The notes under the pieces: model-generated
Told to the model about the DNA's origin: nothing
Databases searched by the model: none
The model's input: only the letters and a program-made list of their open reading frames with translations
Made by a program: the position numbers and the translations under genes
Origin: a virus
Strand: one strand, 5' to 3'
Length of the DNA stretch: 21,160 nucleotides
Virus record (IMG/VR): IMGVR_UViG_3300023708_000965
Coordinates: 1-21,160 of that record
In this document: one piece after another, positions 3,426 through 14,362 of the stretch
Position numbering within the stretch: the first letter of the stretch is position 1
How the letters are laid out: every line of letters begins with the position of its first letter

Positions 3426-6293
3426 ATGGCACGTCAGTTAATTGAAAAATACATATTCTCCCCTAACGCAGCAGGACAAGGTACACTCAAGTTTCCTGGA
3501 AAAGTTGATCTGACTCAACTATTGATTATTGCGAACAAGACACAACAAACAAACATCTATGCGATTGGTGACCCTACTAAGAATGGTTCAATCGTATACG
3601 ATCCAAGCGACATCACTACGTTCTACTCAGAACAGCCTGGAGTTTCAACTGTAACATTCGCAGCTGATACTTCTACTATGCTTAGCACAGATAAGATTGC
3701 GATCTATACTGATGCTCCAAAACAAGTCGGTAACATTATTCGTCCTTATGCATTCGGCGTCGATGCTATTGAACGTATGCGCGTTGCTCAACCACAGTCA
3801 TTGATTGACGCTGACTTTGAATATGGTCTACAGCCAACTAAGTGGCAGAACTACTCTGACATCCGCGGAATTCCAGGTATTTACGAAAAACCAGGTCTTG
3901 ACTTGTTCGTATCTAACATCACATCAGACGGTGGTAACCCATCTGTTATGACTGTGACTTGTTCACAACCTCATGGTCTTGCCGTAGCGCAGCCAGTTAT
4001 TATCTTCGGTACTGCTGGTGTTTCTAATGCTGCTCGTGCTGAAGGTGCTTTCGTTGTAGCTACTGTTCCAGATACAGTCACATTTACATTCTTCGCCAAG
4101 GGTATCGTTGGTGTAAACGGCACTTCTGTTTACAACCAATCAACATATGCTCGTCGTGGTGGTTTCTATGCTGGAGCTGAACTTCCAATTACTGGATATG
4201 TTTCTGATGCTAACTCTCCATCTAAAATTACAGTGACTTGTTCCGCACCCCATGGTTTAGTTCCAGGTGCTCCTATCGTTAACGTTGTAACATCTGTTGG
4301 CACTAACCACACACTAATGGGTGGTAACTTCTTTATCGAAACTGTTCCATCTCCAACGACATTTACATTTACTGCTCGAGTTGGTGGAGCAGTCGCTAAC
4401 TCTGCTATTGTAGCTAAAACTTATACTCGTTCAGACGCTTACGTTCAACATCGTCCATTTGACGGGGGTGTTAACATTGGCACATTCCTACCATCACATG
4501 GTGCTTCTGTCTCTCGTCAGACTAAGAAGTATATGCGTTACCAGTCTGGTAAAGGTATTCTCTGGACTTCTGGTGTTTTGTTTAACCCAGTTCTAAACCT
4601 AGACCAGATCTCTGCATCAGGTACAACTGTTGGTTCTGTTATTACAGTATCTACTGAAATTGACCATGGTCTTCAGGTTGGTGCTACTGTTCAGATTGCT
4701 GGTGTTGTAACTTCTGGTTATAATGGTACATACGGTGTTACTGGTATCACAAACGAATCTACATTTACTGTTGCTGCGACTACTACACTTGGTGGAACTG
4801 CAGCTGTTATTACTAACTTACCACGTGTAACTGTTAAAAACTGGATTGGAGCAACTACTCGTTGCGGTCCATTCGATGATCAAAACGGATTATTCTGGGA
4901 ATTCGACGGACAAGAACTTGCTGTTGTTAAACGTTCTGCAACATACCAGTTGTCTGGCTTTATTACTGCAACTGCTGGTTCTCAAGCTATTACTGGTACT
5001 TCTACACGATTCACGCAACAGCTAAAGGTTGGAGATTCTATCGTTATTCGTGGTATGACTTATCGCGTTGGTTCTATCACTGATGATACTACTATGACAG
5101 TTAATCCAGAATATCGTGGTGTTAACAACGCATCTGGTATTAAAATTGCTCAAGTTCTAGACCAACGTATTCCACAGTCTCAGTTTAACATCGATAAGAT
5201 TGATGGTACTGGTATTTCTGGTTACAACATTAACCTAAACAAGATGCAGATGCTTGGTATCTCATTCTCTTGGTATGGTGCTGGTTTCATCGACTTTATG
5301 TGTCGTGGTGGTGACGGTAATATGATTCTTGTTCATCGTATGAAACAAAACAACGTGAACGATGAAGCGTATATGCGTTCAGGTAACTCTGCTGTGCGTT
5401 ACCAAGCTATCAATGAATCTGCTCGTGATCGTCTAGCTAACTCAATGACTAATACTGCTACAAGTATGGATCTGGTAGATGCTACACGTTTCCCTTCTAC
5501 TGGTGGTGTAGTTATGGTAGAAAACGAGTGTATTGCGTATACAGGTAAGTCTGGCAATACACTAACAGGTCTTACACGTGGCGCGTCATTTACGATGTTC
5601 GTTGGTGGTTCTAATAAGACATTTACTGCTGGTTCTGCTGCAGTCCATGCTGTTGGTAACGGATACAACGCTGTAACTTTAATCAGCTGTACTTGCTCTC
5701 CCGTTGTTAACCACTGGGGTTCTTCTTATATTATGGACGGTAACTTTGACTCAGATCGTGGTTACTACTTCAACTACGCTGCAACAGGTATTACACTTGC
5801 TGGTGGACAGTCTAAAACTGCATTCTTCTTGCGTTTAGCTCCATCTGTATCAAACTCAATTGCTGGCGCGTTCGGAGACCGTGACTTAATTAACCGTTCG
5901 CAGTTACTGCTACAAAACTTACAGATTCAATCAGACGTGCCTGTTCAGGTATATGGTATCTTGAATCCAGGTAACATTGACGCATCAACACTAACTTGGC
6001 AAGCTGTTAACACAGCAGCACTTGGTTCTCAACCATCATTTGCTCAGATTTCTACGAGTACTACTACTGCAGCAACTCCAGGTGAGCAAAACTTCTCAAC
6101 ACTTGGTCAGCCAGCTGGTTTCGCTGAGATTGACTTGAAGAACTTGAAGGAATTAACAAACTCTGCCATCGGTGGTTACTCAAACTATCCAGATGGTCCA
6201 GACGTTTTAGCTGTTGTTGTTAAGAACATCGCTTCGAGTGGTAGTGCTTCGAACGTTAACGTAAACTTGTTCTGGTCTGAAGCACAAGCCTAA
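3426..6293 (+). CDS. Large repeat-containing virion structural protein
   Basis: The 955-residue protein is the longest here. The N-terminal 160 residues (MARQLIEKYIFSP to YEKPG) include RMRVAQPQSLIDADFEYGLQ (118-137), a stretch I associate with large virion proteins of aquatic T4-like phages. Three HGL-containing beta modules follow at about 162-226, 256-317 and 395-452, each reading roughly ITV..(x)HGL..G..V.I.....F.V..V...TFTF. This resembles E1_FCCH-type domains often annotated in phage tail proteins. A GSQAITGTSTRF module lies at 518-565, and residues 671-720 (TSMDLVDATRFP, VENECIAYTGKS, TLTGLTRGA) form another common phage beta module. The rest, to 955, is unassigned. AGGA at 3416-3419 overlaps the preceding stop. 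Position suggests a baseplate/appendage component occupying the gp9-gp12 region, but no one-to-one T4 equivalent is claimed. Confidence 0.75.
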   Translation: MARQLIEKYIFSPNAAGQGTLKFPGKVDLTQLLIIANKTQQTNIYAIGDPTKNGSIVYDPSDITTFYSEQPGVSTVTFAADTSTMLSTDKIAIYTDAPKQVGNIIRPYAFGVDAIERMRVAQPQSLIDADFEYGLQPTKWQNYSDIRGIPGIYEKPGLDLFVSNITSDGGNPSVMTVTCSQPHGLAVAQPVIIFGTAGVSNAARAEGAFVVATVPDTVTFTFFAKGIVGVNGTSVYNQSTYARRGGFYAGAELPITGYVSDANSPSKITVTCSAPHGLVPGAPIVNVVTSVGTNHTLMGGNFFIETVPSPTTFTFTARVGGAVANSAIVAKTYTRSDAYVQHRPFDGGVNIGTFLPSHGASVSRQTKKYMRYQSGKGILWTSGVLFNPVLNLDQISASGTTVGSVITVSTEIDHGLQVGATVQIAGVVTSGYNGTYGVTGITNESTFTVAATTTLGGTAAVITNLPRVTVKNWIGATTRCGPFDDQNGLFWEFDGQELAVVKRSATYQLSGFITATAGSQAITGTSTRFTQQLKVGDSIVIRGMTYRVGSITDDTTMTVNPEYRGVNNASGIKIAQVLDQRIPQSQFNIDKIDGTGISGYNINLNKMQMLGISFSWYGAGFIDFMCRGGDGNMILVHRMKQNNVNDEAYMRSGNSAVRYQAINESARDRLANSMTNTATSMDLVDATRFPSTGGVVMVENECIAYTGKSGNTLTGLTRGASFTMFVGGSNKTFTAGSAAVHAVGNGYNAVTLISCTCSPVVNHWGSSYIMDGNFDSDRGYYFNYAATGITLAGGQSKTAFFLRLAPSVSNSIAGAFGDRDLINRSQLLLQNLQIQSDVPVQVYGILNPGNIDASTLTWQAVNTAALGSQPSFAQISTSTTTAATPGEQNFSTLGQPAGFAEIDLKNLKELTNSAIGGYSNYPDGPDVLAVVVKNIASSGSASNVNVNLFWSEAQA

Positions 6294-6316: not shown

Positions 6317-7924
6317 ATGTCAACACAAGTACAATTTAGACGAGGTACAACAACACAGAACAATGCGTTCACTGGCGCAGCTGGTGAAATTTCTGTTGAT
6401 ACCGATCTTAAAACCATCCGTCTACACGACGGTACTACAGCTGGTGGCGGTGCTACCATGCTTAACAACATCTCTGCGCAAACAGCACTGAATAAAACAT
6501 TCAGTACAGGTTCTGTTTGGCAGGGTTCTGCTGTTGGTTTAGGGTACGGTGGTACTGGTTCTGCTCTTTCTGCAGTAGCTGGTGCTGTTGCATACTCTGG
6601 TGCTTCTGGTTTGGCATTAACTGCAGCTGGTACTTCTGGTCAGATTCTAGTATCTGGTGGTACTAACTCTCCAACTTGGGTGTCAGCTTCTTCTATCTCT
6701 GCTGGTACATCTGCTCTTGCTGCTACTGCTACTAACATTGCTGGTGGTTCTGCTGGACAGTTAGTTATTCAATCAGATACATCCCTAACTACGTTCATTA
6801 CTGCTGGTGCTGCTGGCACATTCTTGAAGTCGGCTGGTGCTGGTTATGCTCCTACTTGGGCAGCTGGTGCAGTTACTATTGGTTCTACTACAGTCGCACT
6901 TGGTGCTACTGCTACTTCTATTGGTGGTCTAGATATTTTAACTGCAACTGGCAATAGTAACTGGACACTCCCAGTAGGTACTACTGCTCAGCGCCCAGCG
7001 ACTCCAGCTGTTGGTATGGTTCGTTACAATACTGATACTGTTGGTTTTGAAGGTTATGCGTCAGGTGCGTGGTCTTCTCTTGGCGGTGTTTCTTCTGTAG
7101 ACAAATTTACATATATTCGTGCAGAAACATCTGCTGGTGCATCTAACGGCGAATTGGAATTCTTTGCCGAAAATGCAGCAGGCACTGCAGCAGCTAAACA
7201 AGGTGGTTGGAACTATACACGTCTATTAACTAACACTCCAATCGACTTTGCAGGTTCTACTTCTGGTACTACTCGTTTGATTGCAACAGCTGCTGCTTCT
7301 GGTACTCTGACTTTACCAGCAGCAACTGATACATTAGTTGGTAAAGCTACCACTGATACATTAACAAACAAAACATTAACTAGCCCAGTACTCACAACTC
7401 CTGTTCTTGGCACACCATCTTCTGGTACGTTGACTAGCTGTACTGGTCTTCCACTAACTACTGGTGTTACTGGTACATTACCTGTTGCTAACGGCGGCAC
7501 TGGTACAACTACATCTACTGGTAGCGGTAGCGTAGTTTTGTCTGCTTCTCCAACTATTACTGGTACACTAACAGTTACTGGTAACATTACAGCAACAACT
7601 ACTATTGCTGCTTACTTCTCAGATGATCGTCTAAAGACCCGTACTGGTTTGATCGAAAACGCTCTAGAGAAAGTTCTTTCTCTAGATGGTTTCCATTACC
7701 ACGCGAACGAAACTGCTGTTGCTTTAGGATATGATGCTTCTATCCAGCAAGTCGGGGTTTCAGCGCAACAAGTTAAAGCAGTATTACCTGAAGTTATTGC
7801 TCCAGCTCCTATCGACCCACAGTATATGACAGTTCAGTACGATCGTATTGTACCATTGTTGATTGAAGCTATCAAAGAACAACAAAAACAAATCGAAGAA
7901 TTAAAAGCTAAGCTAGGAAACTAA
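6317..7924 (+). CDS. Tail fibre with Mtd-like N-terminus and S74 chaperone
   Basis: The 535-residue fibre begins MSTQVQFRRGTTTQNNAFTG and continues with GEISVDTDLKTIRLHDGTTAGG. This closely follows the N-terminal domain of the major tropism determinant (Mtd) of Bordetella phage BPP-1, a trimeric attachment module. The middle is Thr/Gly/Ala-rich with LGYGGTG, TLTNKTLTSPVLTTPVLGTP and LPVANGGTG repeats. The C-terminus (about 424-535) is an S74 intramolecular chaperone domain: SDDRLK at 435-440 is the conserved self-cleavage motif, followed by VGVSAQQVKAVLPE, the VQYDRIVPLLIEAIKE helix and a coiled-coil end. In that family the chaperone drives trimerisation and cleaves itself off before the Ser. 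One base separates the stop from gp13. A receptor-contact role is likely; the target is unknown. Confidence 0.85.
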   Translation: MSTQVQFRRGTTTQNNAFTGAAGEISVDTDLKTIRLHDGTTAGGGATMLNNISAQTALNKTFSTGSVWQGSAVGLGYGGTGSALSAVAGAVAYSGASGLALTAAGTSGQILVSGGTNSPTWVSASSISAGTSALAATATNIAGGSAGQLVIQSDTSLTTFITAGAAGTFLKSAGAGYAPTWAAGAVTIGSTTVALGATATSIGGLDILTATGNSNWTLPVGTTAQRPATPAVGMVRYNTDTVGFEGYASGAWSSLGGVSSVDKFTYIRAETSAGASNGELEFFAENAAGTAAAKQGGWNYTRLLTNTPIDFAGSTSGTTRLIATAAASGTLTLPAATDTLVGKATTDTLTNKTLTSPVLTTPVLGTPSSGTLTSCTGLPLTTGVTGTLPVANGGTGTTTSTGSGSVVLSASPTITGTLTVTGNITATTTIAAYFSDDRLKTRTGLIENALEKVLSLDGFHYHANETAVALGYDASIQQVGVSAQQVKAVLPEVIAPAPIDPQYMTVQYDRIVPLLIEAIKEQQKQIEELKAKLGN

Positions 7925-7925
7925 T

Positions 7926-8882
7926 ATGGCAATTCCAACATCACGAGAATCACTAAAGCAGTATGCTTTGAGAGCACTCGGTGCTCCTGTTCTCGAAATC
8001 AACGTGGACGATGACCAGATCGAAGATCGTATTGACGAAGCTCTGGATTACTGGCGTCTGTACCATTACGAAGGTGTTGAAGAGATTTATCTAAAGCAGC
8101 AGATTCGTGCTTCTGAGATCGTTCTAACTGACCCAGTCGCAAGTCAGTTTAAATTAGAAGAACATATCACTGGCGCTACTTCTGGAGCTAAAGCTACCGT
8201 AACTCGCGAATCACAACGTATGTCTGCTGGCACTCTATTGCTAGTTAAGAACATCGTTGGTACATTTATTCCAGGTGAAGCTATCCACGGCACAACAGTG
8301 ACTGCAACTACAGTTTCTATCACTCCACGTGAATATGATAATCGTTACATCAATATCCCAGACTATGTCTATGGTATTACTGATGTACTTTCTATCGGAC
8401 AAGCATCATCTTCTAAGAACATTTTCGACTTACAGTACCAGTTGCGTTTGAATGACTTGTATGATTTAACATCTACATCTATCATTTACTACACAACAGT
8501 TATGCAACACTTGGACTTGCTAGACTGGACTCTAAACGGTAAGAACAATTTCCGATTCAACCGTCTACAAGACCGTATGTATCTCGATATTAACTGGCAG
8601 TCTGATGTACAGTTTGGAGATTACATCATTATCAAATGCTACCGAGCAATGGATCCCGCCCAATGGTCTAAGATCTGGAATGAGGCTTGGTTAAAGCGTT
8701 ATGTTATTGCTTTGATTAAGAAACAGTGGGCTGTAAACATTAAGAAGTTTTCTGGTATCCAACTTCCAGGTGGTGTTACATTGGATGGCGATAAACTATA
8801 TCTTGAAGCTACAACTGAGATCGCTCAACTAGAAGACGAATTGCAAAACAAGTCTGCGCCATTAAACTTTATGATGGGCTAA
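7926..8882 (+). CDS. 13: Neck protein gp13 (head completion)
   Basis: The 318 residues fit T4 gp13 (309). It forms a head-completion ring with gp14 that closes the filled head and joins the tail. The N-terminus SRESLKQYALRALGAPVLEINVDDDQIEDRIDEALDYW is a strong gp13 signature, as are YINIPDYVYGITDVLSI (about 141-157) and the C-terminal segment from FGDYIIIKCYRAMDP through LKRYVIALIKKQW to GGVTLDGDKLYLEA. Residues about 74-133 look like an insertion: EHITGATSGAKATV and GTFIPGEAIHGTT are a small beta module frequent in phage structural proteins. It is the first gene of a coupled neck operon, with gp14 starting one base after its stop. Confidence 0.9.
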   Translation: MAIPTSRESLKQYALRALGAPVLEINVDDDQIEDRIDEALDYWRLYHYEGVEEIYLKQQIRASEIVLTDPVASQFKLEEHITGATSGAKATVTRESQRMSAGTLLLVKNIVGTFIPGEAIHGTTVTATTVSITPREYDNRYINIPDYVYGITDVLSIGQASSSKNIFDLQYQLRLNDLYDLTSTSIIYYTTVMQHLDLLDWTLNGKNNFRFNRLQDRMYLDINWQSDVQFGDYIIIKCYRAMDPAQWSKIWNEAWLKRYVIALIKKQWAVNIKKFSGIQLPGGVTLDGDKLYLEATTEIAQLEDELQNKSAPLNFMMG

Positions 8883-8883
8883 G

Positions 8884-9783
8884 ATGTCAACAACTAATGT
8901 TTATTTCACACAGGGCACTAGAGGCGAACAGTCTCTAGTCGAAGACCTGATTATTGAATCGTTACGTATATACGGCAACGAGGTTATGTACATTCCAAGA
9001 ACATTAGTTTCAAAAGACGAGATTCTTGGTGAAGACCGCCTATCAGAATTCAAGTCTGCATTCCCTATTGAGATGTATTTCGAGAACGTCGACTCTTTCG
9101 GTGGACAAGGTGCATTCATCCAGAAGTTTGGTTTAATGGTCGAACAGTCTGCCACGTTGGTTGTTGCTCGTCGTCGTTGGGAACAATTTGTTGGTCGCTA
9201 CGGTGTAACAACTGTACCTTCTCGTCCGAACGAAGGTGACTTAATCTATTTCCCACTATCAAAAGGTTTGTTCGAAATCAAATTCGTACAACACCAAGAC
9301 CCATTCTATCAGTTGGGTAAGCTGTATGTTTACAAGCTACAAATTGAATTGTTCCAGTATGCTTCTGAAGCTATTGATACTGGTATCCCTGCTATTGACA
9401 CGTTCGAGTCACTAAAGACATTCAACACAAATACAACAAGAAACCCTAATGGTCAGATTACTCAGATTGTTATGACTTCAAATGGGTCTGGTTATACCAA
9501 TGCAACTGTTAATACAACAAGTAGTTCTGGATATGGAGCAGTATTAACACCAGTTATTAGCAATGGGCAGATAACAAGTATCACTATTCAGAATGTAGGC
9601 AATCATTACCAGACACCTCCTGTATTAGACATTGTTGGTGATGGTATTGGAGCAGCAGCTACTGCTATTATCCAAGCTAACATCGATGTACCTAGCTCAT
9701 ATGGAGATAACAACAGCTTTAAAGAAGAAGCTGCTTCGGTAATAAACTTCGATGAAACCAATCCATTCGGTGAGATTAAATAA
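8884..9783 (+). CDS. 14: Neck protein gp14 with inserted repeats
   Basis: The N-terminal part (VYFTQGTRGEQSLVEDLIIESLRIYG, then YIPRT and EMYFENVDSFGG) and the end (FKEEAASVINFDETNPFGEI) are characteristic of T4-superfamily gp14, the head-completion partner of gp13. Length is 299 against 256 in T4. The excess is explained by residues about 189-268, two GxGYT-type repeats (GQITQIVMTSNGSGYT and GQITSITIQNVGNHYQTPP) of the same family found four times in gp18 of this phage. The insert lies just after the conserved LYVYKLQIELFQY segment and before the C-terminal tail. Its stop overlaps the gp15 start as TAATG. Confidence 0.9.
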   Translation: MSTTNVYFTQGTRGEQSLVEDLIIESLRIYGNEVMYIPRTLVSKDEILGEDRLSEFKSAFPIEMYFENVDSFGGQGAFIQKFGLMVEQSATLVVARRRWEQFVGRYGVTTVPSRPNEGDLIYFPLSKGLFEIKFVQHQDPFYQLGKLYVYKLQIELFQYASEAIDTGIPAIDTFESLKTFNTNTTRNPNGQITQIVMTSNGSGYTNATVNTTSSSGYGAVLTPVISNGQITSITIQNVGNHYQTPPVLDIVGDGIGAAATAIIQANIDVPSSYGDNNSFKEEAASVINFDETNPFGEIK

Positions 9784-10526
9784 TGCTTAACGGAAATATC
9801 TACTATCACGGCATCATTCGTAAAAGCATTGTCGCTTTCGGACGACTATTCAGTGACATCTATATCGATCGCAAACAAGGTGATTCTGTTACTGGTCAGA
9901 CTGCACAGCGTTTACAGATTCCATTAGCATACGCTCCAAAAGAAAAATGGATTGTTCGTTTAGATGGGGATCCGAACCTAGAGAATAATACTTACACGAC
10001 TCTACCAAGAATGTCGTTCGAGATTACTGGCTATAACTACGACCCTTCTCGTAAGACTAATCGTATGCAGCAAGTTAAATCTGGCACTGGCACATCTCAA
10101 CCGACTGTGTATACTCCAGTACCTTACAATCTTGATATGTCTTTGTATATCTTAACCAAGACTCAAGAAGATGGTCTACAGATTTTGGAACAAATTCTTC
10201 CAACGTTCACACCTGAGTATACTCTAACAATCAATTCTATCCCAGAGATGGGCATTCAATCTGATGTGCCTATCGTTTTACAGAGCGTTCAAGTTGAAGA
10301 TAACTATGATGGATCTTTTCAAGATCGTCGTTTTGTCATACACACTTTGAATTTCCAATTGAAGATGAACCTATATGGTCCAATCTCTGATAAAAACGTC
10401 ATCACTCAGGTTAATGCTAACATTGGTCAGAACGAGAACTTTAATGCTCCGAATAGAGTATATACCGCACAGGGTGACGCAACTACAGTAACAGTATCCA
10501 ACGAGAGCTGGATGAACAATTTCTAA
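9783..10526 (+). CDS. 15: Tail terminator / sheath stabiliser gp15
   Basis: At 247 residues this is near T4 gp15 (272), which caps the finished tube and sheath and connects the tail to the neck. The family signature is clear: NIYYHGIIRKSIVAFGRLFSDIYIDR at the N-terminus, then QRLQIPLAYAPKEKWIVRLDGDP (about 42-65), LPRMSFEI, and the C-terminal FQDRRFVIHTLNFQLKMNLYGP. It overlaps gp14 by one base and gp17 by one base. In T4 gene 16 lies between 15 and 17; here there is no room for it. Confidence 0.9.
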   Translation: MLNGNIYYHGIIRKSIVAFGRLFSDIYIDRKQGDSVTGQTAQRLQIPLAYAPKEKWIVRLDGDPNLENNTYTTLPRMSFEITGYNYDPSRKTNRMQQVKSGTGTSQPTVYTPVPYNLDMSLYILTKTQEDGLQILEQILPTFTPEYTLTINSIPEMGIQSDVPIVLQSVQVEDNYDGSFQDRRFVIHTLNFQLKMNLYGPISDKNVITQVNANIGQNENFNAPNRVYTAQGDATTVTVSNESWMNNF

Positions 10527-12103
10527 TGGCAGAAAATTATAATTCAAACGCGAACTTAAAGGCAGCTGGTGTTCAGGTACAATTTACTCCTGAACAGGTT
10601 CAAGAGTATATCAAGTGTTCTCAAGACCCGATCTACTTTATTGAGAACTACTGCTATATCGTTTCTCTTGACCATGGTCTTATTAAGTTTGCATTATATG
10701 ATTGTCAGAAAAACAAAATCAATGTCATCCATAATAACCGTCGTGTTATTCTTATGGAAGGGCGTCAACAGGGTAAGACTACTACTTCTGCCGCCTACAT
10801 TCTCTGGTACACTCTATTCCAATCAAACAAAAATGTAGCGATTTTGGCTAACAAAGCCACTGCTGCACGTGAAGTATTGGATCGTTATCAGACTATGTAC
10901 GAGGCTCTTCCAATGTGGTTGCAACAAGGTGTTACAACTTGGAACAAAGGTGACATCGAATTAGAGAACGGCTCTAAGGTATTCACTGCAGCGACGTCTG
11001 CTTCTGGTATTCGTGGTAAGTCTGTAAACTTATTGTACGTTGACGAAGCTGCGATTATTCCAAACACTGTTGCTGAACAGTTCTTTACTTCTGTTTACCC
11101 TACTATTTCTGCGGGTCAAACAACAAAGATTCTTTTATCTTCTACGCCACTTGGTTACAATCACTTCTGGAAATTCTGGAATGATGCTGAGAATGGACGT
11201 AACGGATTCGTACCACTATTCATTCCTTACTGGGAAATTCCAGGTCGTGATGAGAAGTGGGCAGCTGAACAAAAGGCTATGCTCGGTGAACTCAAGTACA
11301 ATCAAGAGGTTGTATGTAAGTTCTTGGGTTCTAGCTTAACACTGGTTAACGCCGATGTTATCGCTAAAATGTCTGTAGACCCAATCATCTATCAGAAAGA
11401 TGGTCTAGATATTTACGTTCGTCCATCTGCTGGACACGTATACTGTATTATTGCTGACGTTGCTAAGGGTGTTGGTGGAGACCACTCTGCCTTCCAGATT
11501 ATCGACATCACAGAAGTACCTTACCGAATTGTTGGTAAGTATAGAAATAACGAGATTAGTCCCCTATTGTATCCTAACGTTTTATACAAGATTGGTAAGG
11601 AATACAATGAGGCATATATCTTAATTGAAACGAACATTAGTGAACAGGTTGCTCACATCCTTTATAGTGAACTCGAATACGAGAACATTCTAATGGTCAA
11701 CCGTCAAACAAATGGTCAATATATCGGTGGTGGCTTCGGTGGAGGTAAAACTCAACTGGGTGTGAACACTGACAAAAAGGTCAAACGCATTGGATGTCAC
11801 AACTTCAAAGCGATGGTCGAAGAAAATAAGCTGATTGTCAACGATGCTGATACAATCTCTGAGATCTCCACGTTTATTGAGGTTAAGGGGTCATATGCAG
11901 CAGACGAAGGTTATCACGATGACTTGGTAATGCCCTTGGTTCTCTTTGGTTGGCTCACAACTAACCCATATTTCAAAGAGCTAAATAATGTAAACCTCCG
12001 CGAAATTATGTATAAGAAACAAATGCAAGCTATCGAAGAGGAACTGACGCCATTCGGATTCTATGATAATGGAGACGGCGATGCCGAGCCATTGAATTTC
12101 TGA
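10526..12103 (+). CDS. 17: Large terminase subunit gp17 (ATPase-nuclease)
   Basis: This 525-residue motor packages DNA through the portal and cuts the concatemer. The ATPase half has Walker A GRQQGKTT (79-86), Walker B LLYVDE (169-174, catalytic E174) and a coupling motif LSSTPLG (204-210). The RNase H-like nuclease half has acidic residues D311 (IADVAKG), E368 (ILIETN) and D465/D466 (GYHDDLVMP), matching the T4 triad pattern. The protein is shorter than T4 gp17 (610), mainly at the ends, but all key motifs are present, so it should be active. It begins on the last base of the gp15 stop (TAATG). It is one of three genes here that end with TGA. The following 81-base gap contains a late promoter. 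Confidence 0.95.
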   Translation: MAENYNSNANLKAAGVQVQFTPEQVQEYIKCSQDPIYFIENYCYIVSLDHGLIKFALYDCQKNKINVIHNNRRVILMEGRQQGKTTTSAAYILWYTLFQSNKNVAILANKATAAREVLDRYQTMYEALPMWLQQGVTTWNKGDIELENGSKVFTAATSASGIRGKSVNLLYVDEAAIIPNTVAEQFFTSVYPTISAGQTTKILLSSTPLGYNHFWKFWNDAENGRNGFVPLFIPYWEIPGRDEKWAAEQKAMLGELKYNQEVVCKFLGSSLTLVNADVIAKMSVDPIIYQKDGLDIYVRPSAGHVYCIIADVAKGVGGDHSAFQIIDITEVPYRIVGKYRNNEISPLLYPNVLYKIGKEYNEAYILIETNISEQVAHILYSELEYENILMVNRQTNGQYIGGGFGGGKTQLGVNTDKKVKRIGCHNFKAMVEENKLIVNDADTISEISTFIEVKGSYAADEGYHDDLVMPLVLFGWLTTNPYFKELNNVNLREIMYKKQMQAIEEELTPFGFYDNGDGDAEPLNF

Positions 12104-12120
12104 GTTGAAAACTTGTAAAA

Positions 12121-12128
12121 ACTAAATA
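12121..12128 (+). promoter_or_regulatory. Putative late promoter of gp18 (ACTAAATA)
   Basis: ACTAAATA is identical to the box at 2721-2728 and shares the TAAATA core of the T4 late consensus. It sits in the 81-base gap after gp17, 56 bases before the gp18 ATG. High output is expected for sheath and tube, which need many copies per virion. Confidence 0.6.
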
Positions 12129-12133
12129 AAATG

Positions 12134-12153
12134 TAGACACGATTTTCTGTCTA
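12134..12153 (+). other. Hairpin in the gp18 leader
   Basis: TAGACA (12134-12139) pairs with TGTCTA (12148-12153) across an 8-base loop. No T run follows, so it is not an intrinsic terminator. It begins 6 bases after the late box, so it would lie near the 5' end of the gp18 transcript and might protect it. A 6-bp stem can arise by chance. Confidence 0.4.
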
Positions 12154-12184
12154 AAGTAAAAACTTATTAACAAGGAGAATTACA

Positions 12185-14362
12185 ATGCCTTTCCAATTAT
12201 CTCCAGGCGTTGCAGTCGTAGAAAAAGATTTTTCATCAATCGTTCCAGCCGTGTCTAGCTCACGTGGAGCTTTTGCTGGTGCGTTTGCTTGGGGTCCAGT
12301 TTTGGCTCCTACATCTGTCACTTCCGAGAACGAATTAGTTCGTCTATTCGGTAAGCCACAAGACGCCAATGCCCAATCTTTCTTTACTGCAGCAAACTTC
12401 CTGTCTTATACAAATAGCCTATTAGTTAGCCGTGCTGACACTGCTACACAACGTAACGCTGTTGCAACTCAAACTGGTACTGTTACTGGTGTCTCTGTAG
12501 GCAACCAAGGTTCTGGTTATACTTCTATTCCAGAAGTAGCATTCTCTGCTCCAGACATTGCTGGTGGCATTCAAGCTACTGGTACTGCTCGTCTTTCTGG
12601 TGGTGGCGTTACTGGTATCGCTGTTTCTGGTGGTGGCGCTAACTATGCTTCAGCTACAGTAAACATCTCTGCTCCACAAGTTGCTGGTGGTACTACTGCT
12701 ACTGCTCACGCAACTATCTCTGGTGGCGCTATTACTGCTATCGTTATCGATACAGCTGGTTCTGGTTACACTTCTGCTCCAACAGTTCAGATCGTTTCTG
12801 CTACTGGTGCAGGTGCTACTGTAGGATCTGTTTCTATCTCTGCTTCTACTGTTACTGGTATCGTTATCAACGAATCTGGTACTGGTTACACTTCTGCTCC
12901 AACAGTTACTGTGGCTGATCCAGATTCTGGAACAACTGCTACTGCTACTGCTGAAATTACAGTCGGTGGTGTTAAGATTAACAACTCTGACGTTTACCTA
13001 CAATCTTTCTCTAATGGTGAAGGTGTTGTTGGTGAATTTGCTGCTCGTTTCCCAGGAACTTTAGGTAACTCTATTGCAGTTTCTATCGTTGACTCAGCTA
13101 CTTGGACTGCATGGAATGTTGCTTATAAATCTAACTTCGATGCTGCTCCAAGCACATCTACATACGCTGCTAATGTTAATGGTACTAATGATGAAGTTCA
13201 CGTTATCGTTGTTGACGAAGGTGGCGCATGGACTGGTATTCCAGGAACTGTTCTAGAAAAATTTGCGTTTGCTTCTAAGGCATCTGATGCTAAGAAGTCT
13301 GACGGTACAAATAACTACTACAAGAACGTTATCAACACAAACTCTGAATACATCTACTGGATGGATCACCCTGTTGGTGGCACTAACTGGGGTGCTGCTG
13401 CTCAGTCTACAACTTTTGCTACTCTTGGCTCTGCTGTTACTCGTTCACTATCTGGTGGTGTAGATAACCTTACTGCTACTGATGGCCAATTGATGACTGC
13501 TTACTCTTTGTTTGCTGATGATGCTCAATATGACGTATCATTGATTCCAATGGGTAAGGCTTCTGCTGCTGTTGTTGACTACGTTATCAGTAACGTTGCT
13601 GAAGTTCGTTTGGACTGCGTTGTATTTGCTTCTGCAGAAAACGTTTCTACTGGTGAACCAATCATCGGTACAGGTTCTAACGCTACTGACAAGATTGTTG
13701 CATACCGTAATGCTCTACCAAGCACTTCTTATGCTGTTCTTGACTCTGGCTTCAAGTACCAATATGACCGTTACAACGATAAGTATCGTTGGATCCCATT
13801 GAACGGTGACACTGCTGGTCTATGTGCACGCACTGATTACACTAACGACCCATGGTTCTCTCCATCTGGTCTAAACCGTGGTCAAATCAAGAACGTTGTT
13901 AAGTTGGCTCACAATCCAACTAAAGCAGATCGCGATATCCTGTACAAAGCTGGTGTAAACCCAATCGTTACATTCCCAGGAGAAGGTACTGTTCTATTCG
14001 GTGACAAGACATTGTTGGCTAAGCCATCTGCTTTCGATCGTATCAACGTTCGTCGCTTGTTCATTGTTATGGAAAAAGCTATCGCTACTGCTGCTAAGTA
14101 TCAATTGTTCGAATTCAACGATCCATTCACTCGCGCTCAGTTCAAGAACTTGATCGAGCCATTCCTACGTGACATTCAAGGTCGTCGTGGTATTACAGAT
14201 TTCGCTGTTAAGTGCGATGAGTCTAACAACACTGGTCAAGTAATTGACTCTAACAACTTTGTTGCTGACATCTTCGTTAAGCCAAACCGTTCTATCAACT
14301 TTATTACTCTAAACTTCGTGGCTGCTCGTTCTAGCATTAGCTTCAGCGAATTAGGTGCTTAA
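12185..14362 (+). CDS. 18: Tail sheath protein gp18
   Basis: The 725-residue contractile sheath subunit (T4 gp18 is 659) polymerises around the gp19 tube and drives it through the envelope. The N-terminus [14 protein letters not shown] with FAWGPVL (about 35-40) and LFGKP is typical. The C-terminal half carries the conserved core: [23 protein letters not shown] (516-538), then [22 protein letters not shown] (586-601), [20 protein letters not shown] (621-633) and FNDPF. Residues about 98-258 are four tandem repeats of roughly 40 residues with GxGYTSAPxV cores (98, 140, 181, 221), presumably a surface insertion in the variable outer region of the sheath. AAGGAG at 12172-12177 is a strong ribosome-binding site. 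Confidence 0.95.
12476..12958 (+). repeat. Four tandem GxGYT repeats within gp18
   Basis: The segment encodes four units of about 40-42 residues with cores [39 protein letters not shown] and [13 protein letters not shown]. Units 3 and 4 share an exact 26-base stretch (12762-12787 and 12882-12907) at an offset of 120 bases, so a duplication has been in frame and fairly recent. Two related units occur in gp14 (about residues 189-268). Confidence 0.85.

Follow-up and report, generated by a model that had tools for sequence, protein, structure and literature searches.

The immunoglobulin (Ig)-like accessory domains of phages, reportedly described by Fraser and colleagues in 2006, are a small beta domain common to unrelated virion proteins. 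Extra beta domains are set in the conserved core of tail sheath proteins, with more of them in larger phages (Evseev et al., 2022, PMC9230969). In phage T4, residues 98-188 of the sheath protein gp18 form domain I, a protruding six-stranded barrel with a helix, which takes no part in sheath-sheath contacts and binds the baseplate as well as the retracted long tail fibres; the substitutions G106S, S175F and A178V inhibit fibre retraction (PMC3004832). At the neck, T4 gp13 has a swing domain (residues 52-192), which flips into contact with portal and capsid, and a fibritin-binding stretch (residues 190-239); in T4 gp14, residues 178-256 bind gp15 (PMC12270204, a preprint). Domain mosaicism has also been described for phage proteins, including neck passage proteins (Smug et al., 2023, PMC10684548). 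Here we analyze gp13, gp14 and gp18 from a 21,160-base stretch of viral DNA (IMG/VR virus record IMGVR_UViG_3300023708_000965, positions 1-21,160, hereafter the window), in which conserved neck and sheath proteins probably carry accessory, paired and exchangeable beta domains.

Both add-on domains in the sheath and the mosaicism of phage domains are thus already known. Like the domains of Evseev et al., those of the window are beta domains in a conserved sheath core; the work in PMC9230969 was on sheath folds, whereas here one repeat family is followed through several proteins of the virion, its pairs are counted and the replacement of its alleles is described. As in the mosaicism of Smug et al., a domain is exchanged in a structural protein while the neighbours stay alike; their neck passage example (PMC10684548) is a C-terminal exchange, whereas here the exchanged domain lies in an internal loop of the Ad2, Hc2 and sheath proteins of T4-like phages. 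T4 gp18 domain I (3FOA) occupies the same place in the sheath chain, has six beta strands, the number predicted for a pair of window repeats, is peripheral and is dispensable in some relatives; T4 has one domain plus a helix, whereas the window gp18 has two tandem pairs, and the link to this repeat (module A) is made by profile through arrays of the S-CAM3 type, direct similarity being weak. Module A differs from the Ig-like phage domains in being a two-unit GxGYT repeat, and no Ig family was matched in Pfam at E up to 1 by gp13, gp14 or gp18. No description of the repeat family, the pair rule or allele replacement in these three proteins was found in the accessible open-licence literature, motif strings included.

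Paired and unpaired modules in gp13, gp14 and gp18

The window contains a T4-type structural cassette in the order gp13-gp14-gp15-gp17-gp18-gp19-gp20, as judged from core profile matches and T4 gene order. The three proteins and their modules are located as follows.

7926-8882, plus strand: gp13, head-tail adaptor (Ad2), 318 amino acids, carries module B (phrog_211, E 3.2e-41; AlphaFold 2 (AF2) model against T4 gp13, 9lu4, Z 15.4)
8112-8333, plus strand: module B in gp13, residues 63-136, six predicted strands (core-anchored segment; AF2 predicted local distance difference test (pLDDT) about 90, strands 63-133; 2-residue linker in relatives)
8884-9783, plus strand: gp14, neck/head closure (Hc2), 299 amino acids, one module A pair (Pfam T4_neck-protein, 3.3e-33)
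9451-9681, plus strand: module A pair in gp14, residues about 190-266, units about 190-228 and about 228-266 (unit hidden Markov model, HMM)
12185-14362, plus strand: gp18, tail sheath, 725 amino acids, two module A pairs (Pfam sheath domains; Foldseek against T4 gp18, 9mkb, E 3e-38; VIA-align against 3foa, Z 33.8)
12476-12727, plus strand: gp18 module A pair 1, units 98-140 and 140-181 (unit HMM; strands 97-107, 117-120, 132-137, 142-152, 158-161, 173-179)
12725-12967, plus strand: gp18 module A pair 2, units 181-220 and 222-261 (unit HMM; strands 182-190, 201-204, 209-218, 223-230, 240-243, 253-261)

Module A is built from a GxGYT unit of about 40 residues, with two copies in gp14 and four in gp18. 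Its profile was seeded with the six window units and then iterated on relatives; the gp18 units match the iterated profile with independent E-values (i-E) of 1.5e-15 to 1.8e-10, composition-shuffled segments gave 0 matches to the unit profile in 1765 sequences, and gp18 as query against the window record found gp14 as the sole other match (E 9.3e-8). An earlier interpretation of the window made from its letters (the sequence-only reading) had placed one repeat in gp14 (about 189-268) and gp18 (98-258) in two and four copies, which the unit profile and the match between the two proteins confirm. It had also called the gp13 insert different from this repeat, and comparison of modules A and B with hhalign (probability 0.2%) agrees that they are different modules, the insert being slightly wider (63-136) than the 74-133 proposed. 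The T4 core it had assumed in all three proteins is indeed kept, according to Pfam and PHROG matches and the Z score of the gp13 model.

Counted with the unit HMM in distinct segments, 0, 2, 4, 6 and 8 units occur in 20, 5, 78, 3 and 1 gp18 segments; for gp14, 57 segments have none, 83 have two and one has three, and for gp13 104 have none and one has two. The sole three-unit gp14 (L222; L numbers denote loci) has a degenerate fourth unit that is visible by eye in the sequence. Of the 78 four-unit gp18 arrays, 13 have a long extra segment (52-93 residues) separating units 2 and 3, and none has one between units 1 and 2 or 3 and 4. Therefore, the module A domain is a pair of units with about 80 residues and six predicted strands, present once in gp14 and twice in tandem in gp18, and it is this pair that moves and not the single GxGYT repeat of the sequence-only reading. 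Exceptions to pairing are gp14 of L181 and gp18 of L081 and L082 (two units detected), where an extra segment splits the detected units. In cellular genomes, the module A count is even in 67 of 82 matched open frames.

Two further segments were observed alongside the pairs. A probably helical segment of 86 residues splits the two-unit module in the gp14 of L181 (7536-8705), which is unlike all other gp14 seen, and gp18 of L055, L056, L059, L064, L068, L159, L166, L170, L175 and L177 has a further module of 92-93 residues between module A pairs 1 and 2.

Structure models were made for whole gp18 and whole gp13. In the gp18 array, where pLDDT is above 90 for the most part, AlphaFold predicts about three strands per unit and six per pair; for module B it also predicts six strands. 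The module A motif contains invariant residues. In the Foldseek and VIA-align scores of whole gp18 the sheath core dominates and the listed ranges leave a superposition of T4 domain I unseen, so that these matches are uninformative on the array.

Presence, absence and exchange across relatives

Segment lengths were taken from one core anchor to the next in IMG/VR loci and named phages, leaving out those that could not be anchored (7 of 192 in gp13, 5 of 197 in gp14 and 27 of 175 in gp18, the last including T4, Melnitz-3, HTVC008M, Mosig, S-RIM8 and S-CAM3). The gp13 insert (185 of 192 measured) has 2 residues in 25 cases, 24-29 in 28, 72-89 in 125 and 98-174 in 7, and the gp14 segment (192 of 197) ranges from 53 residues without a module up to 259. 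The gp18 segment (148 of 175) is 47-51 residues long and has no array in L195, L199, L206-L209 and others; lengths of about 121-134 residues belong to loci with one pair or another insert and 207-230 mostly to two pairs, with a maximum of 385. Eight state combinations exist among the 91 loci with all three proteins scored, one gp18 zero (L145) being an artefact: gp18 of L145 and L074 is cut by contig ends, and L145 was wrongly scored as 0 units in the state counts and the tree. On the core tree, the fewest changes are 4 for module B in gp13 and 5 for module A in gp14 (126 distinct rows), and 6 for module A in gp18 (51 rows), one of these six being the L145 artefact. The gp14 of S-SSM5 has module B (E 6e-11) at the site where the window gp14 has module A, and in the gp13 of L079 a module A pair is nested within module B.

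Allele replacement and rates of change

Exchange is also visible in the DNA. L174 and L126 (and L127) are mostly 92-100% identical across gp13, gp14 and gp15 and 62-65% identical inside the gp14 module, with identities of 0.94-1.00 across gp13, the gp14 flanks and gp15, 0.64-0.65 within the module and 0.80-0.82 on its shoulders in the comparison with L126, whereas L126 and L127 share 94-100% throughout gp13-gp14-gp15. Between L174 and L126 the gp14 core has 100% amino acid identity and 9% divergence at 88 four-fold sites, the module 41% divergence at 39 such sites (Fisher p 1e-4). The L126-type gp14 modules reach 0.76-0.80 with phages whose gp14 core is only 78-86% identical, and a lower 0.71-0.73 with L174. 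Similar contrasts between core and module exist for gp14 of L136 and L164 (92% versus 38%) and gp13 of L186 and L190 (90% versus 36%). Hence swapping at the allele level is real, one allele having been replaced by another. Across relatives the modules are absent, multiplied, swapped for the other module at the same site, or replaced by another allele with flanking DNA near-identical. The insertion and swapping proposed in the sequence-only reading are supported by variation in presence and length, by alternation of A and B at one gp14 site and by replacement confined to the module; it would have given up the insertion idea had all close relatives shown no length variation, and such variation was found. 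Concerning phase variation, which it had also considered, no sign (simple-sequence tracts, invertible cassettes) was seen, and no search aimed at it was made.

The modules evolve faster than the core, yet under purifying selection. The median ratio of nonsynonymous to synonymous substitution (dN/dS) in module and core is 0.140 versus 0.037 for gp13, 0.347 versus 0.065 for gp14 and 0.378 versus 0.142 for gp18, and it is higher in the module in 118 of 123, 236 of 236 and 99 of 101 pairs, respectively, counts that are not independent trials because the rows are related. Module and core identity correlate with 0.735, 0.478 and 0.606 (gp13, gp14, gp18), which is below the values between parts of the core (0.900, 0.585 and 0.801).

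Among 48 distinct phages with two gp14 and four gp18 units, the nearest match of 269 of the 288 units is the same position in another phage, and the identity of gp14 and gp18 units within one phage (0.329) equals that of permuted pairs (mean 0.328, fraction 0.36). Therefore, the arrays are old and positional and are not now copied from gp14 to gp18. With respect to the spread of related modules suggested by the sequence-only reading, a single family in gp14 and gp18 stands, and recent spread between both genes of the same phage is rejected, as the units group by position without any within-phage excess.

Position in the virion and probable relation to T4 domain I

In the alignment with T4, the window gp18 array starts at residue 98, which is the aligned place where T4 domain I starts (T4 boundaries from PMC3004832). 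The gp14 pair aligns to the C-terminal arm ahead of the conserved tail; in gp13 the T4 fibritin-binding stretch is missing and module B lies in the loop after the first strand. The gp18 array likely holds the position of T4 domain I, which would be its diverged relative.

An intermediate for this relation is the array of the cyanophage S-CAM3 type, which was gathered by homology and not by motif; an earlier bridge from windows picked by a VGD-containing motif was set aside as T4-biased and replaced by these motif-free homologues. The S-CAM3-type array matches module A with E 7.5e-13 over 63 columns and T4 domain I with E 4.7e-6 (probability 86%, 23 columns), both E-values being single comparisons chosen after the likeness was noticed; the latter score of 35.9 was not reached in 200 column shuffles (maximum 16.8). 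Compared directly, module A and T4-type domain I (13-sequence alignment) match weakly, although their score exceeds that of all 100 column shuffles. If the initiator Met is left out of the numbering, G106 is the G of the T4 'GSNY' and the counterpart of the invariant GxGY glycine of module A; S175 and A178 fit the same numbering. Judged by these profiles, homology of at least the first hairpin is probable but unproven.

Several points speak against the reading as accessory domains on the virion surface that are related to T4 domain I. The direct comparison just mentioned is weak, with a probability of 3-9%, and the bridged match to T4 spans just the 23 columns and depends on comparisons selected afterwards. 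Moreover, the S-CAM3 array is located at another gp18 place, after a PGTWANGL-type strand, and therefore module A entered the sheath more than once or moved. The core tree cannot separate gain from loss and has no direction, so that 'insertion' may be 'loss elsewhere', and the rows in both the rate and the state counts are related. Finally, placement and exposure are argued from T4 positions by alignment.

Distribution of the modules and database matches

In nine large viral contigs (110-174 kb), module A is matched 6-14 times per contig. Apart from gp14 and gp18, the module is found in a baseplate wedge protein of gp8 type (phrog_438, 1.2e-86; the Pfam Phage-Gp8 match of 0.0001 is below the cut-off), in a wedge protein of phrog_232 (3.8e-35), which we take to be gp53-type, in a wedge-like protein of 704 residues (phrog_17744, 3.7e-43) and in a 'MALWGNKD' protein of 331-424 residues whose PHROG matches name no family of its own. 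Module B occurs in gp13-length frames in 7 of the 9 contigs and in frames of 2027-2300 residues in 4 of 9. In a cellular sample picked by short patterns, the profile found module A in 79 of 80 bacterial and archaeal loci (best 80 of 217 confirmed); in these contigs (L299-L378) it is common, and a single frame can hold as many as 23 units.

Neither Pfam nor NCBIfam gave a model matching module A, and annotators therefore see just uninformative composite PHROG matches. Against sequences of solved structures, only the Dpo31/Dpo36 tailspike fell below 0.01 for module A (marginal, E 0.0011), and nothing fell below 0.2 for module B. The best fold matches of module B alone are residues 766-844 of a T4 baseplate chain in 5iv5 (Z 6.8, root-mean-square deviation (rmsd) 2.1, 68 residues) and the KP1-variant counterpart in 9f4a (Z 7.2, rmsd 3.3, 72 residues); both chains are presumably gp7, only entry titles being given. 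With 13-18% sequence identity and Z below 8, these model matches may mean just a common barrel, and translation-factor or pyruvate-kinase barrels reach Z of about 5.

Even at E up to 1, none of the window proteins matched carbohydrate-binding module 5/12 (CBM_5_12, PF02839). In the gp8-type protein of L281 (1096-3669), residues 463-492 among the module A units match it with E 3.7e-5, below the cut-off, and similar-looking YTVTxAGTTG...PTHTTG segments are present in gp14 of L194 and L079 and in gp18 of L120.

Possible role and competing explanations

The segments are best explained as accessory beta domains placed in loops at the periphery of conserved neck and sheath proteins. They would offer fibres, whiskers or adjacent parts of the virion an exchangeable surface to dock on, with assembly and contraction left to the core. 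By analogy to T4 domain I, which protrudes, makes no sheath-sheath contact and holds fibres and baseplate, such docking is the likeliest role, yet a tentative suggestion with somewhat less than an even chance. It is conceivable, but rather unlikely, that module A pairs form a single docking domain that is ancient and shared widely, with T4 domain I as a diverged member, a common fibre or whisker latch on gp18, gp14, gp8, gp53 and sometimes gp13 that is retuned by allele swaps, and whose invariant GxGY turn would be the site damaged by T4 G106S. The main rival is adhesion to the host or particle surface, with the modules weakly binding cell-surface glycans and thereby raising encounter rates, as proposed for phage Ig-like domains. 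This seems possible, although we doubt it: it is mildly favoured by the below-cut-off CBM_5_12 match in one gp8 and by the similar-looking segments in some gp14 and gp18 arrays, and the wide occurrence of module A in bacterial and archaeal genomes is in line with it, but the window modules match no carbohydrate-binding family and module A is present in the presumed gp53 as well. For the sheath add-on domains, adhesion or stability has been proposed by Evseev et al. (PMC9230969), and a role in virion stability cannot be set apart on these data.

The modules might also be ancestral parts of the core that were lost in some lineages, for gp18 an old domain I lost by phages of the L195 type. The profile link to T4 domain I, the conservation of units by position across phages and the lack of direction in the tree changes would all fit, whereas copy numbers of 2, 4, 6 and 8, the A/B alternation in gp14 and the second gp18 site in S-CAM3 need gains too, and we regard this explanation as doubtful. 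Ongoing copying between gp14 and gp18 of one phage could be imagined since both genes hold one module family, but the positional grouping of units and the within-phage identity at the permuted level make it very improbable. A low-complexity or neutral spacer without a defined fold is hardly credible: the composition is rich in G, T, A and S and dN/dS is three to five times that of the core, but pLDDT is about 90 with regular predicted strands, dN/dS stays well below 1, the units are paired and motif residues are invariant. Accessory, paired and exchangeable domains let modular evolution on the exterior of a conserved contractile virion be counted cleanly: there is one two-unit domain whose copy states are known, some phages naturally lack it, another module rivals it at the same site, and the replacement of at least one allele shows in the DNA. 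They make it readable how phages may retool the outside of a conserved virion, and they offer a testable reading of T4 domain I as a member of a larger family.

Other observations in the window

The gp15 of the cassette matches Pfam T4-gp15_tss (1.4e-74). The window gp18 recurs unchanged on a 42.9 kb contig (L009), and a 166.5 kb contig (L094, L172) has gp13 and gp14 identical to those of the window, the gp14 segment being that of L172. At 9783-12103, gp17 directly follows gp15 with one base in common and, unlike in T4, no frame for gp16 (small terminase) lies between them. Upstream of gp13, a tail-fibre-like protein (6317-7924) has an N-terminal Major tropism determinant domain and a C-terminal S74 intramolecular chaperone domain. 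At 3426-6293, a virion protein of 955 residues (phrog_5838, E 5.9e-249) has its own 'ITVTCSxPHGLxxG' repeats, possibly another mobile beta module, and similar 'HGL' segments are also present in the MALWGNKD proteins of L282 and L283.

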